Positions 19,664 through 26,000 of a stretch of 64,000 nt of DNA are shown here, one piece after another. The notes below the pieces were generated by a model that searched no databases, was not told the origin of the DNA, and was given only the letters and a program-made list of their open reading frames with translations. A program made the translations under genes and the position numbers. Position 1 is the first letter of the stretch, and each line of letters begins with the position of its first letter. Source of the DNA: Arthrobacter sp. Edens01. GTDB taxonomy: Bacteria; Actinomycetota; Actinomycetes; Actinomycetales; Micrococcaceae. The DNA lies in assembly GCF_001307035.1 (NCBI RefSeq), contig NZ_LKIU01000002.1, positions 727,088-791,087 on the forward strand. The letters run 5' to 3'.

Positions 19664-20701
19664 ATGGGTGCTGCCCGGCGCATTGTTTTCCCAATCCTGT
19701 GGCTGGTTGTTTTCGCCGTCATCGCCGCAGCGTTGTTCAAGCTCGCTTTCCTTGACGGCATGCGGGCTGAGGCACAGACAGACGTGCCCTCTGCCCAGAT
19801 ACAGACAGCTACGGTCCAGGCTGAGCTGGCCACCATCACCAACACCGTGGAGGTCCAGGGATCGGTGCTGTCCGATCCGGGGATCCCGGTCCGCAGCACC
19901 ACGGACGGGACAGTGGTCTTCATCGATGCAGAGCAGGGGCAGACGGTGGAGAAAGGCCAGCGGCTTTTCCAGGTTCGAAAGCTCCTCGAGGACCAGCCGG
20001 TCATGCCTGCAGCCGATGAGGATGACGGCCCCCCGCCGCCGGCCGCGCCGCTTTACACCTACGTTGACGTTACGGCCACGGCCGGCGGAACCCTGGGCAC
20101 ATTCACGGTGCTGCTGAACCAGCAGGTCACCGTCGGAACAGAGGTTGCCTCGATCGATCCGGGGACGTTCTCGGTCCAGGGGACACTGACCCCCGACCAG
20201 CAGTTTCGAATCCTGAACCGCCCGGGTACCGCCGAGGTTGCACTGAATGGGGGACCGGCCCCCTTCGCCTGCGGTGACCTCACCATGGGCAAAACGCCGG
20301 CCGCTGCCGGGGGCGACGGCGCGGCGGGGCAGGACGGTTCAGCCCCTGGTCCGCAGACGCCGCAGGGCAGCGGATCCGTGAGCTGCGCTGTTCCCGGCGA
20401 TGTCCCGGTGTTCGGCGGCCTGGGTGCCACCATTACCATCACGGCCGGCGAGGCAAGCGACGCAGTCACCGTGCCCACCACCGCTGTCCAGGGGCTCGTG
20501 CAGAACGGCGTGGTGTGGGTTGTCACCGCTTCGGGGGATACCGAGGAACGCCCGGTCACCCTCGGCCTGACCGATGGACAGGCTGTTGAGATCACGCAGG
20601 GCCTCAGCGAGGGCGAGGAAGTCCTCCTGTTCGTCCCGGGGGCCGAAGCTCCGCAGGATGAACAGGGCATGATGTACGGTCCCGGGGTGATGGGCGGATG
20701 A
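19664..20701 (+). CDS. MacA-like membrane-anchored adaptor protein
   Basis: A 345-residue HlyD/MacA-type adaptor with an N-terminal transmembrane anchor at about residues 8-31 and no lipobox. The extracytoplasmic part contains lipoyl-like half-domains (DGTVVFIDAEQGQTVEKGQRLF, TAGGTLGTF), a Gly/Ala/Pro-rich insert at about residues 206-230, and a C-terminal barrel (VPTTAVQGLVQNGVVWVV). It is the first gene of a MacAB-like tripartite operon. It probably couples the ABC transporter to substrate outside the membrane; the substrate is unknown. Stop and next start overlap by 4 bp (ATGA). Confidence 0.85.
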   Translation: MGAARRIVFPILWLVVFAVIAAALFKLAFLDGMRAEAQTDVPSAQIQTATVQAELATITNTVEVQGSVLSDPGIPVRSTTDGTVVFIDAEQGQTVEKGQRLFQVRKLLEDQPVMPAADEDDGPPPPAAPLYTYVDVTATAGGTLGTFTVLLNQQVTVGTEVASIDPGTFSVQGTLTPDQQFRILNRPGTAEVALNGGPAPFACGDLTMGKTPAAAGGDGAAGQDGSAPGPQTPQGSGSVSCAVPGDVPVFGGLGATITITAGEASDAVTVPTTAVQGLVQNGVVWVVTASGDTEERPVTLGLTDGQAVEITQGLSEGEEVLLFVPGAEAPQDEQGMMYGPGVMGG

Positions 20702-21456
20702 CCGGACTTGCATCAGAGGTCTCGGTCCAGCCTGGTGCGGGGGCAGAGCCGGAGTACGTGCGCCGTTCACTCATTAGCCTGGAGCAGGTGACCCGCAGCG
20801 TTATGCTCCCGGACGGCAAGAACCTCACCATCCTGGACGGCGTTGACCTGCAGATCCACGGGGGAGACCACGTATCGGTGGTAGGCCGCTCCGGGTCCGG
20901 CAAGTCCACCCTGCTGAACATCCTGGGGATGCTGGACCTTCCTACATCGGGGCAGATGGAGTTCGACGGGATTCCCGTGGAGTCCATGAACCCGAACGCA
21001 CGTGCCGTCAGGCGGGGCAGCGCCGTCGGGTTTATCTTCCAGCAGTTCAACCTCCTGCCCGAACGCACGGCCGTGGAGAACGTTATGACCCCGCTGCTCT
21101 ACGCCCGTGGGCGGTCCTTTTGGCAGCGGGAGAGAATCGCCGCGCAGATGCTGGACCGCGTTGGCCTCGGCAGCCGGCTTCACGAGAAGCCGCAGAAACT
21201 GTCCGGCGGAGAGCAGCAGAGGGTCGCAATTGCCCGGGCGCTGGTCCGCGGACCGCAGCTGATTTTGGCCGATGAACCTACGGGTGCGCTGGACATCGGA
21301 ACGGGCCAGGCAGTCATGGCACTCCTGCAGGAGGTGGTGGCTGAATCCGGAGCAGCACTGGTGACGATCACCCATGACCCCAATGTCGCGGCGCTCGCGG
21401 ACAGGCATTTCCTCCTGGACGCCGGACGCCTGAGTGCCGGGGAGGAGGCGGCATGA
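20698..21456 (+). CDS. MacB/LolD-type ABC ATPase
   Basis: A 252-residue ABC ATPase of the MacB/LolD/FtsE class. Walker A GRSGSGKST, Q-loop FIFQQFNLLPERT, signature LSGGEQQRVAIARAL, Walker B LILADEPTGALD and switch ITHDPN all match the class. It is flanked by the MacA-like adaptor and a FtsX/MacB-fold permease with ATGA overlaps on both sides, so the three are one transcription unit. Mechanotransmission-type export of a peptide, lipid or antibiotic is inferred. Confidence 0.92.
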   Translation: MTGLASEVSVQPGAGAEPEYVRRSLISLEQVTRSVMLPDGKNLTILDGVDLQIHGGDHVSVVGRSGSGKSTLLNILGMLDLPTSGQMEFDGIPVESMNPNARAVRRGSAVGFIFQQFNLLPERTAVENVMTPLLYARGRSFWQRERIAAQMLDRVGLGSRLHEKPQKLSGGEQQRVAIARALVRGPQLILADEPTGALDIGTGQAVMALLQEVVAESGAALVTITHDPNVAALADRHFLLDAGRLSAGEEAA

Positions 21457-22655
21457 GCCTGTCCGGAATGGCCGCTGCCCTGGTGGAGGCATGGACCGAA
21501 CTGAGGATCCACCGGGCCCGGATCCTGCTGGCCCTGGTTGGGGTTGCCCTGTCAGTAGCGGCGCTGACCGCCGTCGTCGCGCTGGCAGATATGGCACGTG
21601 CTGCGATGGCGCAGGGATCCGAAGCCCAAAGCGGGCGCCCGGCAACCGTGAGCGTCTCGGCCTACCCCAATGACGGCTCCCCCGCAGATACCGCCGCGCT
21701 GCGCGAGGCCTACGACGCCACGGTGGAGCGCTATTCCGTCAAGCACGCCTCACTGTTTTTTCCCACGGTTATCCCGTTCCAGTTCCCTGACGGGGTAGTC
21801 CAAATCCAGACCTCGGTTGTGGACGTGGACTACGGCACCATGAGGCGGGTGAAGCTCGATTCAGGAACCTGGTTTACCGAAGCTGATGCCGAGCGGTTTG
21901 CCCCCGCCGTAATCGTCAACGAAGCATTCCACGCGCGCCTGGGCTACCCGGATCTGGACGCCGATCCGGTCGTGGAAATCCGGAACGGCAGCCACCCCGT
22001 GGACGCCGTTGTCACCGGCGTCCGGCCAAACCTGTATCCGGAGGAGTCTGCGTCCGCATACCTCCTTACCGGCGCTTACGACAGGCTGGGAACCGCGGAC
22101 AACGGATCCGTACCGATGCTGGAACTGTGGGTGCCCGAAGACACGGCAGAGGCTCTGCAGCACGCCATTACGGCCGATCTCGCGGCACAGTTTCCCGGCA
22201 TGCAGCCAAATGTCTACCGCAGCGACTATGCAGCGTGGGGTGACCCCTATGCGGTGATGACACTGGTGGTGGGAGGGATCGCGGGCATGGTGATGCTTCT
22301 TGGCGCCGTAGGCCTGCTCAATATCTCCATGGTCACGGTGAAGCACCGGGTCCGGGAAATCGGCATCCGCCGCAGCTTCGGCGCTACGTCGGGCCGGATC
22401 TTCTTTGGGGTAATGCTCGAATCCGTGGTGGCGACGTTCGCGGCCGGAGTCCTGGGGGTGATGGCGGCCGTCGCCGTCGTCAAGCTCCCGGTAGTACAGC
22501 AGCAGGTCGCCTTTGGTGTCACCGAGCTGCCCCCGTTCCCGGTGGAGGCTGCCTTGCTGGGGCTGGGAGCGGCCACTGCCGTCGGGGCCCTCGCAGGACT
22601 CATACCTGCCCTGGTAGCGGTGCGGGTAAAGGTCATCGACGCCATCCGCTACTGA
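21453..22655 (+). CDS. MacB/FtsX-fold ABC transporter permease
   Basis: A 400-residue permease: one N-terminal transmembrane helix (about residues 25-48), a large MacB-type extracytoplasmic domain (about residues 50-265), then three C-terminal helices from about residue 267 on. The conserved coupling segment VKHRVREIGIRRSFGATSGRIF lies between helices 2 and 3. Last gene of the export operon, overlapping the ATPase by 4 bp and followed by a strong terminator. Confidence 0.92.
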   Translation: MSLSGMAAALVEAWTELRIHRARILLALVGVALSVAALTAVVALADMARAAMAQGSEAQSGRPATVSVSAYPNDGSPADTAALREAYDATVERYSVKHASLFFPTVIPFQFPDGVVQIQTSVVDVDYGTMRRVKLDSGTWFTEADAERFAPAVIVNEAFHARLGYPDLDADPVVEIRNGSHPVDAVVTGVRPNLYPEESASAYLLTGAYDRLGTADNGSVPMLELWVPEDTAEALQHAITADLAAQFPGMQPNVYRSDYAAWGDPYAVMTLVVGGIAGMVMLLGAVGLLNISMVTVKHRVREIGIRRSFGATSGRIFFGVMLESVVATFAAGVLGVMAAVAVVKLPVVQQQVAFGVTELPPFPVEAALLGLGAATAVGALAGLIPALVAVRVKVIDAIRY

Positions 22656-22957: not shown

Positions 22958-24475
22958 TTAGTACCCCAGGAACGGATCGGTGTGGACCCGGCGCACTCCG
23001 GCTCCCTTGAGCGCGCTGCGGGCGGCAGCGACGGCCGACGGCGAACCGGCCACGAACGCCGTGCGCTCCGCGGCGTCGGGAACCGCCTTGGCCAGGGCAG
23101 CGGCATCCGGCAAACGTGCCCCAAGCCAGGTCCATCCCGGCCGCGAAGGATCTTCAGGCGTGCAGGCAACTACCCTGACCCCAAGCGCTGCCAGCTCGTC
23201 AGCGTAGGCCAGCTCCGCGGTGGAGGAAGCGGAGTAGACCAGCACAATGTCCCGGCCGGCAGCGTCGGGGGAGCGCAGCTGGCTCAGGAACGGCGTAATG
23301 CCGATTCCCGACGCCATCATCAGGATTTTGCGTCCGGAATCGCGCGGAAGCTGAAAGTCGCCGCCCACGGACGTTGCCGAGATTCGGGCACCGGGCTTCA
23401 GCGCCAGCAGCTTCGTCTTGAAGGAACTGCCCGGAGATGAAACCCGCAGCGCTACCGAAACGGTCTGCGGGTCCTCAGGTGCGGAGGTGAGGCTGAAAAT
23501 TCTGCGCAGGCCGCGGCTGTCGGGGCTGGGATGCGGCAGGCTCAGCTCCAGGTACTGCCCCGCCCGGTAGCGCAGCGGCCGCTCCGGTTCAAAGACCAGC
23601 TCCCGTGCTGTGGGGGTCAGCTCCCGGGAGCCGCGCAGCCGCAGCGAGATGCCGCCCCGCTGTCCGGCAGCGAAAGCAAGCAGGTTGCCGATCAGCAGGG
23701 CAAGTTCGGGAGACATAAACACCGGTCCGAGGGAGAACGGAACGGAGAACAGGATGCCAACGACGCCGGCTTCCGCCAGCCGCTGCCAGCGCAGCGGCGG
23801 CAGGGTCAGCGGTTCGGAGAGCATAAAGCCGGCGAAGAACAGCACAGGATAGGACCCCAGCGCCGTGGCCAGGCCCTCCAGCACTGACTCTCCGGCAGAG
23901 GCAAAGCGAATCACCACGACTGCCGTTGCCACGAGCACGAACATTCCGGCCATCGGCAGCAGGCGGCTGCGGTAAAGCACCAGCAGTGCTGCCGGGATCA
24001 CCACTACGAGCATCAGCGGCGCGGCCACCCACCAGACAGGAGCGTTAAGCCCCGTGACGCCCATGACGAAAGCGCCAACGGCAGCCGGGTTGAAGATGTG
24101 GCGCCGCCGCCAGACCAGCACGTACTTCGAGGCCGTTGCAGCCAGTCCAGCCAGCGCGATCCAGCCAAGCTGGACGCCGTCGGTGGTTGGCCAGAAGAGG
24201 AAGAACAGCAGCAGTCCGGTAATCAGGGCAGAGTCCGTCTGCGGGAAGGTCCGGAACAGCAGCCCCATCACCCGGCTGGCCATCAGCGTGGAGACCACCG
24301 CGGTTGCCAGCGTCGCCGCAAGCTCGGCCGGAGTGTAGAAAAGCGCGCCCGCAAGGGAGAGCACAAAGGACCACGCGGCCATGGCCAGCAGCAGTACCAC
24401 GAGCATGCGGTACATGCTCATCCTCCCCAGCAGGCGCTGCAGCCGTGCGGAGGGAGTGCTCAGGGAAACGGTCAT
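22958..24475 (-). CDS. NqrB/RnfD-like membrane protein fused to flavin reductase
   Basis: A 505-residue fusion. Residues 20-265 form a polytopic membrane domain resembling NqrB/RnfD (about eight helices; HIFNPAAVGAFVMG matches the family FNPAAVG motif). Residues 270-505 form a ferredoxin-NADP reductase-type module: FAD motif RAGQYLELSLP, NAD(P) motif MASGIGITPF, and AFVAGSPSAV near the end. The [2Fe-2S] ferredoxin domain of NqrF is absent, and I cannot find the covalent-FMN motif of NqrB/RnfD. It is the last gene of a three-gene operon with an FMN-binding lipoprotein and ApbE, overlapping apbE by 4 bp. Inferred role: move electrons from cytosolic NAD(P)H across the membrane to the lipoprotein. 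Confidence 0.85.
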   Translation of the reverse strand: MTVSLSTPSARLQRLLGRMSMYRMLVVLLLAMAAWSFVLSLAGALFYTPAELAATLATAVVSTLMASRVMGLLFRTFPQTDSALITGLLLFFLFWPTTDGVQLGWIALAGLAATASKYVLVWRRRHIFNPAAVGAFVMGVTGLNAPVWWVAAPLMLVVVIPAALLVLYRSRLLPMAGMFVLVATAVVVIRFASAGESVLEGLATALGSYPVLFFAGFMLSEPLTLPPLRWQRLAEAGVVGILFSVPFSLGPVFMSPELALLIGNLLAFAAGQRGGISLRLRGSRELTPTARELVFEPERPLRYRAGQYLELSLPHPSPDSRGLRRIFSLTSAPEDPQTVSVALRVSSPGSSFKTKLLALKPGARISATSVGGDFQLPRDSGRKILMMASGIGITPFLSQLRSPDAAGRDIVLVYSASSTAELAYADELAALGVRVVACTPEDPSRPGWTWLGARLPDAAALAKAVPDAAERTAFVAGSPSAVAAARSALKGAGVRRVHTDPFLGY

Positions 24476-25341
24476 GAAAAAAGGACTCCAGCCATTGCGG
24501 GTGAATACTCTGCCCTGCCGTCGGAGAACATTCGCACGTAGTCGAATTGGAACTCGGCAGCGAGAGAGGAAGGGTCAGTGAGGAACAGTGCTGTGGCCAG
24601 GCCGTCTGCAGTCATGGCGTTCCGCGCCAGGACCCAGGTGGCAGCTACGGCCCTGACAGGTAAGCCCGTGGAGGCATCCAGGACATGGTGCAGGCCATTG
24701 CCCCATGCCCGCCGGTTGGTGGCGGAGGCGCACAGGGCGCGGTCCTGTAGGTGCACGACGCCGATGGCCTGGTTTGGGTCGAAGGGATGCTCCAGCCCAA
24801 CCCGCAGTCCGGGTCCACAGTGGCGCATGTCGGAACCGGCATCCACCACAACCGAAGCATATCCGCGTCCGGTAACCAGTTCCCAGACGAGGTCTACCAG
24901 CTGGCCCTTCCCGGCAGCCCCGACGTCGAGCGTCCCGGGGCGGTCCAGGCTCAGGCGGACATCGTCCCGGGCCCCGGACTCCCAGCGCACGGCCTCCGGC
25001 CAGGGCGGGGCGCCGGCAGCCGGACCCTGCGGGGTCAGCCGGTAGCCCGGGCCGTAGCCCAACAGCTCAAGCGAACCGCCAACCAGCGGGTTCATCCGCC
25101 CGCCGGTCAGCCGGTCCAGGGAATCAAAGAGCGAGAACAGTTCAGCCGTGTAGCGGGGCAGGGATACCGTGCCTCCGCCGTGTGAGAGCCCGGACAGGAT
25201 CGAGTCGCTGCGGAAACGGGAGAGCGCCGCGTCGTACTCGGAGACAAGCCCTGTCACGGCCGCACGGGTCTCGGCGTCGAGCGGGGCCTCGGCACTGATT
25301 TCCCACTGCGTGCCAATCGCTTCGAAGGACCAGGACTCCAT
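24472..25341 (-). CDS. apbE: ApbE-family FAD:protein FMN transferase
   Basis: A 289-residue flavin transferase that attaches FMN covalently to Ser/Thr of target proteins using FAD and Mg. Motifs: the N-terminal segment AIGTQWEI, TLDVGAAGKGQLVD (residues 138-150, the family GG-AKG loop), VVVDAGSD (164-171), and MTADGLATALF near residue 250 for Mg binding. The protein begins directly with the catalytic fold, with no signal peptide or lipobox, and no upstream in-frame start is available. That is odd because its likely target is an exported lipoprotein. It lies 10 bp after the lipoprotein gene and overlaps the fusion reductase by 4 bp. Confidence 0.92.
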   Translation of the reverse strand: MESWSFEAIGTQWEISAEAPLDAETRAAVTGLVSEYDAALSRFRSDSILSGLSHGGGTVSLPRYTAELFSLFDSLDRLTGGRMNPLVGGSLELLGYGPGYRLTPQGPAAGAPPWPEAVRWESGARDDVRLSLDRPGTLDVGAAGKGQLVDLVWELVTGRGYASVVVDAGSDMRHCGPGLRVGLEHPFDPNQAIGVVHLQDRALCASATNRRAWGNGLHHVLDASTGLPVRAVAATWVLARNAMTADGLATALFLTDPSSLAAEFQFDYVRMFSDGRAEYSPAMAGVLFS

Positions 25342-25351
25342 GATCAGGCCT

Positions 25352-25825
25352 CTAGCGGGCCGCTTCGCTCTTGATTTCGTCCAGTGCCTTGTTGAAGCCC
25401 GAGCTGGTCAGCGAGGAAGAAGCGATTTTGTCCACCTTCACCTCATCAAGGGGTTTTCCAACGACCTCCTGCTGGACTCCACCAGTGAACTCGGCCTGGT
25501 AGCGCTTGGACGTCGGGTGGTTGCCGGACGTGGAAACTTCCACGTCCGTGACTACGCCGTCGCTCAGGGTCAGGGATACCGTGACCTCTTCCTTGGTGTT
25601 TGACGGCGGAATGTAGCTGCCCGTGGCGGTGTATTCACCGTTCTGGTACTGGCCGCCAGTTGCCGGCGCACCGCTGGACGCTGTACCGCTGGACGCTGCG
25701 GGCGTGGAAGCACCCGCTGCCTCGTCGGAAGCGGCGTCCTGGGCCGTTCCGGTGGAGCCGCAGCCGGCGGTTCCCAGCAGCGCCAGACCTGCGGCGGCAG
25801 TTAGCAGCGGTTTCTTGGAATTCAC
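25352..25825 (-). CDS. FMN-binding-domain lipoprotein
   Basis: A 157-residue lipoprotein: signal peptide with lipobox TAGC (Cys22), a Ser/Ala/Thr/Gly linker to about residue 57, then an FMN_bind domain (NGEYTATGSYIPP, DGVVTDVEVST). The region where this family carries covalent FMN, consensus Dxx(S/T)GA(S/T), reads D132-KIASSS-LTS here, so Ser138 is the best acceptor candidate and the usual G-A pair is replaced by Ser-Ser. Companion apbE downstream supports flavinylation. Start ATG at 25825 behind GAAGGAG. First gene of the operon. Confidence 0.88.
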   Translation of the reverse strand: MNSKKPLLTAAAGLALLGTAGCGSTGTAQDAASDEAAGASTPAASSGTASSGAPATGGQYQNGEYTATGSYIPPSNTKEEVTVSLTLSDGVVTDVEVSTSGNHPTSKRYQAEFTGGVQQEVVGKPLDEVKVDKIASSSLTSSGFNKALDEIKSEAAR

Positions 25826-25988
25826 GGATGCTCCTTCAATTGCAGGCGGGTCTTCCCCTCTTATTACAACCCATCAACGCCGCCGTGTGCCTTTCGGTGC
25901 CCGGCTGTGCTGCAGGACACATTTGCCCCCGGGCTGGAGATTCAGGTGACGCAAACCGGAGGAATAAGGCCGGTGTGTGCAGCCCCGC

Positions 25989-25994
25989 TATGCT
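25989..25994 (+). promoter_or_regulatory. -10 element of a probably leaderless argS
   Basis: TATGCT ends 6 nt before the GTG of argS and no Shine-Dalgarno is present, so transcription probably starts at or next to the start codon. No good -35 is visible. Confidence 0.5.
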
Positions 25995-26000
25995 TAACCG

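Follow-up and report, generated by a model that had tools for sequence, protein, structure and literature searches.

The locus and its genes

We analysed a window of 64,000 nucleotides from Arthrobacter sp. Edens01 (contig NZ_LKIU01000002.1, positions 727,088 to 791,087) and focus here on three of its genes, all on the minus strand. They encode a lipoprotein with a flavin mononucleotide (FMN)-binding domain, the flavin transferase ApbE, and a fusion of an RnfD/NqrB-like membrane domain with an NqrF-like reductase domain that would use flavin adenine dinucleotide (FAD) and NAD(P)H. A sequence-only reading of this DNA had described a tightly packed operon on one strand, and the open reading frame (ORF) coordinates agree with it: the lipoprotein and ApbE genes are separated by 10 bp (25342-25351), and the ApbE and fusion genes overlap by 4 bp (24472-24475). 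The features, in window coordinates, are as follows.

25352..25825, minus strand: FMN_bind lipoprotein (fmn), 157 amino acids, GTG start; from the ORF, a PF04205 family match and a fold match
25760..25825, minus strand: signal peptide and lipobox ending GTAGC, with Cys22 predicted to be lipidated; KK and no twin arginine
25355..25645, minus strand: FMN_bind domain, residues 61-157; block means of the predicted local distance difference test (pLDDT) 79-96, and fold matches
25412..25414, minus strand: Ser138, predicted FMN acceptor, within ASSSLTS (family AGSSLTS), by alignment
24472..25341, minus strand: ApbE (FAD:protein FMN transferase), 289 amino acids; PF02424 at 1e-38, without signal peptide
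22958..24475, minus strand: fusion protein (nqr), 505 amino acids, RnfD/NqrB-like membrane domain joined to NqrF/FNR-like FAD-NAD(P) domain; from family, model and fold
23666..24475, minus strand: membrane domain of the fusion, residues 1-270, lacking the covalent-FMN segment of RnfD by profile and motif comparison
22961..23656, minus strand: predicted cytosolic FAD/NAD(P)H reductase domain, residues 274-505; NqrF fold, PF00175 in relatives
25826..26000, no strand: spacer between the trio and the divergent argS, with AGGAG ahead of fmn; from the intergenic alignment, role inferred

The fusion protein

The NqrB/RnfD family PF03116 is not found in the window fusion protein, and at E <= 0.1 it matches 9 of 35 aligned fusion proteins, the best at 1.7e-9. 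PF00175 scores 19.1 bits in the window protein, under its 22-bit cut-off, and matches 32 of the 35 at the same threshold. The AlphaFold2 model (mean pLDDT 89.8) matches the RnfD chains 8rbq_D, 9eri_D and 7zc6_D in the VIA second look at Z 22 to 24, with 253-263 residues aligned at a root-mean-square deviation (rmsd) of 5.6 to 7.0 (8rbq_D: Z 24.0, 263 aligned, rmsd 7.0; 7zc6_D: Z 22.3, 253 aligned, rmsd 5.6), over spans that run beyond the membrane domain. The reductase domain matches NqrF 7qu5 (Z 24.1, rmsd 2.7, 230 aligned). Profile comparisons gave low scores: by hhalign, the membrane profile matches E. coli RsxD with 17.6% probability (E 0.0014) and the lipoprotein profile matches RsxG with 1.2% (E 0.045), and a PHROGs search returned only a weak ferredoxin-type match. 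The case for both proteins rests on Pfam matches in relatives and on fold.

A weak match of the family profile to RnfD 8ahx_D (E 0.0021) aligns to RnfD residues 21-142, a block not significant alone, and 220-329; between them lie 7 profile positions against 77 residues in RnfD. E. coli RsxD carries DGISQAT, placed by eye, in the segment missing from the fusion family, and an SGAT-like motif is absent from all 49 membrane domains compared. By these alignments, the RnfD segment that carries covalent FMN is lost from the fusion family, and the covalent Thr of NqrB/RnfD is not conserved.

The sequence-only reading also held that the trio stands without other Nqr/Rnf subunits, which is borne out for two families: PF03116 has no match in the genome and PF02508 has a single sub-threshold match (15.4 bits, cut-off 23.8), while subunits of the NqrA, RnfC and NqrF types were not searched for.

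The lipoprotein and its acceptor motif

The window lipoprotein scores 19.1 bits for FMN_bind (Pfam cut-off 22), and PF04205 matches 31 of 34 aligned lipoproteins at E <= 0.1, the window protein included. A lipobox-like site is present in 51 of 52 fmn frames of the family. The C-terminal domain resembles domain 2 of SaFMN3, which carries covalent FMN (8p2a; Z 11.2, rmsd 1.9, 87 aligned), as well as NqrC 4xa7 (Z 8.6) and RnfG 9eri_G (Z 7.2), in a structural list in which unrelated folds reach Z 9.2. Moreover, the lipoprotein family profile finds SaFMN3 domain 2 by sequence (3.1e-6).

The family motif is AGSSLTS, and Ser occupies the acceptor position in 46 of 46 lipoproteins compared; the window protein reads DKIASSSLTS. 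The acceptor predicted from this alignment is the Ser of this variant motif. The two most distant rows, outside the 46, keep SGATNTS, with its Thr in the Ser138 column. The motif expression struck a linker in two lipoproteins, and a separate frame listing shows ASSSLTS there.

Flavinylated proteins usually carry the motif D-x-x-[S/T]-G-A-[S/T], in which Thr is favoured over Ser; in published tests, flavinylation fell when T was changed to S, G to A or A to V, and the minimal motif of seven residues is functional as a terminal tag (PMC12052999). Judging from the sequences, it is plausible that ApbE has co-evolved with the Ser motif.

Could ApbE serve a different protein altogether? The lipoprotein might bind FMN non-covalently or not at all, and ApbE might modify a cytosolic target. 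A signal-less ApbE with a cytosolic target has a precedent in Klebsiella, whose cytosolic ApbE acts with a soluble fumarate reductase (PMC12052999), and the departure of the lipoprotein motif from the consensus fits this alternative. In the trio, however, the ApbE gene lies beside that of an exported lipoprotein, in an operon that stays tight at all 30 of the best-scoring loci (see below). The target lipoproteins share the Ser without exception, and the trio lipoprotein is the best FMN_bind match of its genome (21 bits, just under the cut-off; the other match has E 0.67). We consider a different target distinctly improbable.

A signal-less ApbE with an exported target

The window ApbE is a clear-cut member of its family, and Ser206, His218/219, Asp246 and the DxGxxxKG motif are invariant in 45 of 45 sequences. 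These residues include the Ser-His-Asp triad described for ApbE (PMC12052999), which we mapped onto the window protein ourselves. Its domain starts almost at the N-terminus, within a few residues, and only a few bases separate the gene from the preceding fmn stop codon; the window thus leaves no room for a signal.

We extended this comparison with a rule that asks for a start codon, a basic n-region and a hydrophobic core. An N-terminal signal or anchor was found in none of 48 trio ApbEs, the window protein included (50 were given, two were not located). It was likewise found in none of 86 further ApbE loci of the same class, which we take to be Actinomycetes; one gene appears twice in this set (L122, L159), which also includes a few ApbEs that are trio-type by sequence. 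Among ApbE loci of other classes in the phylum, which are high-scoring matches and hence a biased sample, 42 of 50 have a signal or anchor. The eight negatives include a fragment (L092) and a protein with a visible lipobox-like AGLAGC (L108); for scoring on a tree the latter was counted as signal-bearing and the former dropped, leaving 49 of the 50. A cruder hydrophobic-window test flagged 6 of 54 trio ApbEs, which on reading proved to be the first domain strand or an upstream frame and not signals.

A tree built from 183 ApbE domains separates the other-class sequences cleanly from those of the trio and the same class, with local support of 0.998; the signal state changes 2 times on it, where 200 shuffles gave a mean of 39. 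Signal-less and signal-bearing ApbEs may form one deep split, of which the trio would be one case. The ApbE of one further trio (L076), which comes from a distant, low-GC member of the phylum, likewise lacks a signal and groups with the signal-less sequences in the tree.

What do the other signal-less ApbEs of the class lie beside? Any FMN_bind match was obtained at 33 of the 86 class loci. All 15 neighbours scoring at least 79 bits have an N-terminal signal or anchor; 18 rows below 30 bits were dropped as unreliable (2 of 18 with a signal, and 17 of 33 overall). At L120, L181, L183, L184 and L191, the FMN_bind protein beside the signal-less ApbE begins MRR followed by a hydrophobic stretch, a possible anchor for the twin-arginine translocation (Tat) or general secretion (Sec) pathway. 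Tat export was rejected as a general answer for the trio, since the twin arginine of the Tat consensus is not conserved in its lipoproteins; the Tat route may still apply to other FMN_bind anchors in the class, several of them with MRR at the start.

Covalent flavinylation outside the cell needs FAD there, and Listeria supplies it with a dedicated energy-coupling factor (ECF) transporter; EetB, a member of PF07456, exports the FAD (PMC9973259). PF07456 was over its cut-off in 0 of 46 genomes, with two weak matches below it, and other FAD exporters were not searched for. ApbE might still act outside, on exported FAD, if it left the cell without a leader or by hitchhiking, perhaps in complex with its target. 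That ApbE is an extracytosolic lipoprotein in well-studied systems (PMC12052999) and that the target here is exported both agree with this, but the uniform lack of a signal in the 48 trio and 86 further class loci argues against it, as does the PF07456 result within its limits. We regard an outside ApbE as unlikely, though less so than a different target. The sequence-only reading placed the covalent FMN outside the cell without considering the compartment in which ApbE works; its attachment step needs revision in view of an ApbE without a signal peptide.

Proposed mechanism

We propose that the trio is probably a minimal one-way NQR/RNF-like electron exporter in which FMN is put on the lipoprotein precursor in the cytosol. 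NAD(P)H would reduce FAD in the cytosolic domain at the C-terminus of the fusion. The RnfD-like domain would then carry the electrons across the membrane, probably by means of a non-covalent flavin because the covalent-FMN segment of RnfD is gone, and hand them to FMN held as a phosphoester on Ser138 of the lipoprotein at the outer face. From there they would pass to a diffusible or cell-surface acceptor. The domain identities and this route from NAD(P)H to FMN had been put forward in the sequence-only reading, and families, fold and conserved synteny support them.

The FMN would be attached by the neighbouring ApbE. As ApbE has no export signal and its target has one, the precursor would most likely receive its FMN in the cytosol, which contains FAD, and be exported afterwards in flavinylated form; alternatively, flavinylation and export may be coupled at the inner face. 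ApbE acts on a seven-residue tag, and therefore a precursor could be modified and a folded, exported domain need not be required.

Several observations weigh against this proposal. Of the flavinylation consensus, the window motif DKIASSS retains just the Asp and the last Ser; its S/T, G and A positions are altered, and the Asp, present in the window, is not conserved across the family. Since departures from the motif lowered flavinylation in published variants, covalent attachment is not certain. At the position of a twin arginine, the trio lipoproteins usually have KK, SK or RK, and RR in few. A folded precursor bearing flavin would therefore make no obvious substrate for Tat, and Sec export of an FMN-bearing chain would be needed. 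Our signal calls come from a hydrophobicity rule, not from SignalP. Foldseek returned no match for the lipoprotein at E <= 0.001, and its own top 50 for the fusion held reductase-type matches only, a weaker result than the VIA second look. Finally, one genome (G028; L043, 5261-8189) has an open fusion gene beside a major facilitator superfamily (MFS) gene, with fmn and apbE lost there. The sole FMN_bind match of that genome lies in another cluster (L123), MsrQ-like by eye, and its fusion may be a natural partner swap that borrows another FMN protein.

Electrons might instead flow inward, with the lipoprotein oxidising an outside donor and the fusion making NAD(P)H. FNR-type modules can work in both directions, which lends this some support. 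However, we consider it the least likely of the alternatives, and very unlikely: the published proposal for the same architecture is outward flow (PMC8238504, PMC10979944), and no obvious donor-side oxidase occurs among the recurrent neighbours named by Pfam, which are not all of those neighbours.

Conservation and genomic context

The closest named relatives of the fusion, among the matches found, are in A. citreus, A. koreensis and A. gandavensis (87-89% identity), in a search that may omit the window's own record. We surveyed 295 genomes of the family and 396 of the phylum, the latter including the window's own genome and one more of the family. The fusion is matched over most of its length in at least 86 of the 295 family genomes, including 24 of 24 same-genus genomes listed, and G285, G144, G114 and G008 give partial matches only. 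At E <= 1e-25, 10 of the 396 phylum genomes match; both domains are covered in 8 of the 10, of which six come from outside the family and one (G591) has an internal stop. The fusion gene is interrupted at G144:C1:1209730-1211231 and G591:C16:33784-35139, where the system may be decaying or the sequence may be faulty.

The order fmn-apbE-nqr on one strand is kept in all 30 best-scoring loci, the window's own and 29 others, which include all 24 same-genus genomes; this conservation argues that the trio is not a chance arrangement. Twenty wider loci (L034-L053), picked by hand from the 86 matching genomes to cover other genera too, keep the order in 19 cases, with G028 as the exception. Together with eight named loci (L063-L070) they make up 28 wide loci, in which one genome (G272) occurs twice, and argS and lysA lie within the stretch in all 28 (20 of 20 wider and 8 of 8 named). 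Based on the conserved order and these neighbours, the trio looks like an old chromosomal locus and not a mobile one. In a distant relative (G507; L071, 2345-7932), fmn lies about 2.6 kb from apbE and the fusion gene, with other genes between, and PF04205 misses it.

In the window, the trio is flanked by tRNA-Arg(CCG) on one side and argS-lysA on the other. Genes for an HlyD-like adaptor, an ATP-binding cassette (ABC) ATPase and a MacB/FtsX-type permease (19664-22655, plus strand) converge on the trio across the tRNA gene, and this set is also near the trio in several relatives. Six genomes from other genera (L038, L040, L042, L047, L048 and L049), and also G028, have an MFS transporter gene that separates argS from the trio site.

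Recurrent downstream neighbours were named by Pfam from one example each, one predicted ORF having no match. They are a DEAH helicase with DUF3418, an AraC-type regulator with a DJ-1 domain, ABC ATPases, a TetR regulator, a zinc dehydrogenase, a HIT protein, a ketoacyl-ACP synthase III, an M4 peptidase, a WYL regulator and a MacB-like permease. No recurrent neighbour names the electron acceptor in the 28 wide loci, where smaller clusters were left unnamed and VIT1 was not among the profiles applied. Two genomes that belong to the same order but to a different family carry an OmpR-type response regulator gene directly downstream of the trio, on the opposite strand (L072, 4137-6403; L073, 9102-9836), accompanied in L072 by a histidine kinase.

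Intergenic footprinting aligned 22 of 29 regions, six being omitted for length and one for lack of the gene. All that stands out in the alignment is a -10-like block of argS and, ahead of fmn, a Shine-Dalgarno sequence and a -10-like box. A TGTAATAA-like box at 25861-25868, whose role is inferred, is common to close relatives. No conserved palindrome that could serve as an operator was seen by eye in the 22 aligned regions, a weak negative.

Relation to known flavinylation systems

The architecture of the trio is that of the NQR/RNF-like flavinylation system, reported in 2021 from 127 clusters in 127 genomes, primarily of Actinobacteria and the candidate phyla radiation (CPR), and proposed to export electrons one way from NAD(P)H (PMC8238504). 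That system has the same two-subunit plan, with the NqrB/RnfD-like and NAD-binding domains fused in one protein, alongside an FMN_bind subunit and ApbE. It likewise does not keep the covalent Thr of NqrB/RnfD, and Actinobacteria are among its main hosts. The system of Ktedonobacter racemifer was modelled with AlphaFold in a 2024 preprint, which noted the loss of the covalent Thr from the membrane subunit (PMC10979944). The sequence-only reading had taken the layout to be uncharacterised. Its scheme is sound and the layout is not new, given that the same architecture is published and the loss of the covalent Thr is confirmed here; the published descriptions are by sequence and AlphaFold, and the available sections of these accounts contain no experiment that we could find (PMC8238504, PMC10979944). 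By its alignments, then, the trio is a sequence-divergent branch, with a Ser motif, of an architecture already known.

How far does this branch depart from the published system? The detection rule for NQR/RNF-like systems required PF03116 (PMC8238504), which at E <= 0.1 misses 26 of our 35 aligned fusion proteins, that of the window included. Since the rule misses most of the aligned family, the published count of 127 genomes is likely too low, as far as these profile matches can tell. Moreover, we did not find the Ser acceptor and the signal-less ApbE discussed in the available sections of the published accounts.

The trio would share with RNF and Na+-NQR the RnfD/NqrB fold, the NqrC/RnfG-type FMN domain and the NqrF-type reductase, as its models indicate. 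Unlike those complexes, it sits in a genome with no PF03116 match and one sub-threshold PF02508 match, and its membrane domain is missing the FMN segment of RnfD; we therefore expect neither a return path nor ion pumping. The MsrQ-like flavinylation systems of Actinobacteria, whose clusters we recognised by eye, also have an exported FMN_bind protein beside a signal-less ApbE, but there the partner in the membrane is a ferric-reductase-type haem protein (PF01794, PMC8238504). In the open-licence literature we found no report of cytosolic flavinylation of an exported FMN_bind protein, nor did we find there in print the signal-less ApbE that serves an exported target, or its class-wide extent.

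Implications for surface flavoproteins

Extracytosolic flavinylation is described as occurring outside the cell and requiring FAD there. The split in the ApbE tree raises the prospect that, across the Actinomycetes, exported flavoproteins receive their covalent FMN inside from a signal-less ApbE and are exported flavin-loaded, with no need for a FAD exporter or an extracytosolic transferase. We see the balance for and against this wider claim as roughly even. If it is true, surface electron carriers would be made by a different logic, with flavinylation inside the cell, and Sec or Tat would be able to pass a flavin-bearing chain. It is the signal-less ApbE with an exported target, more than the operon, that specialists would want tested. 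Being small and set in a genome that has only one ApbE, the trio allows a clean test.

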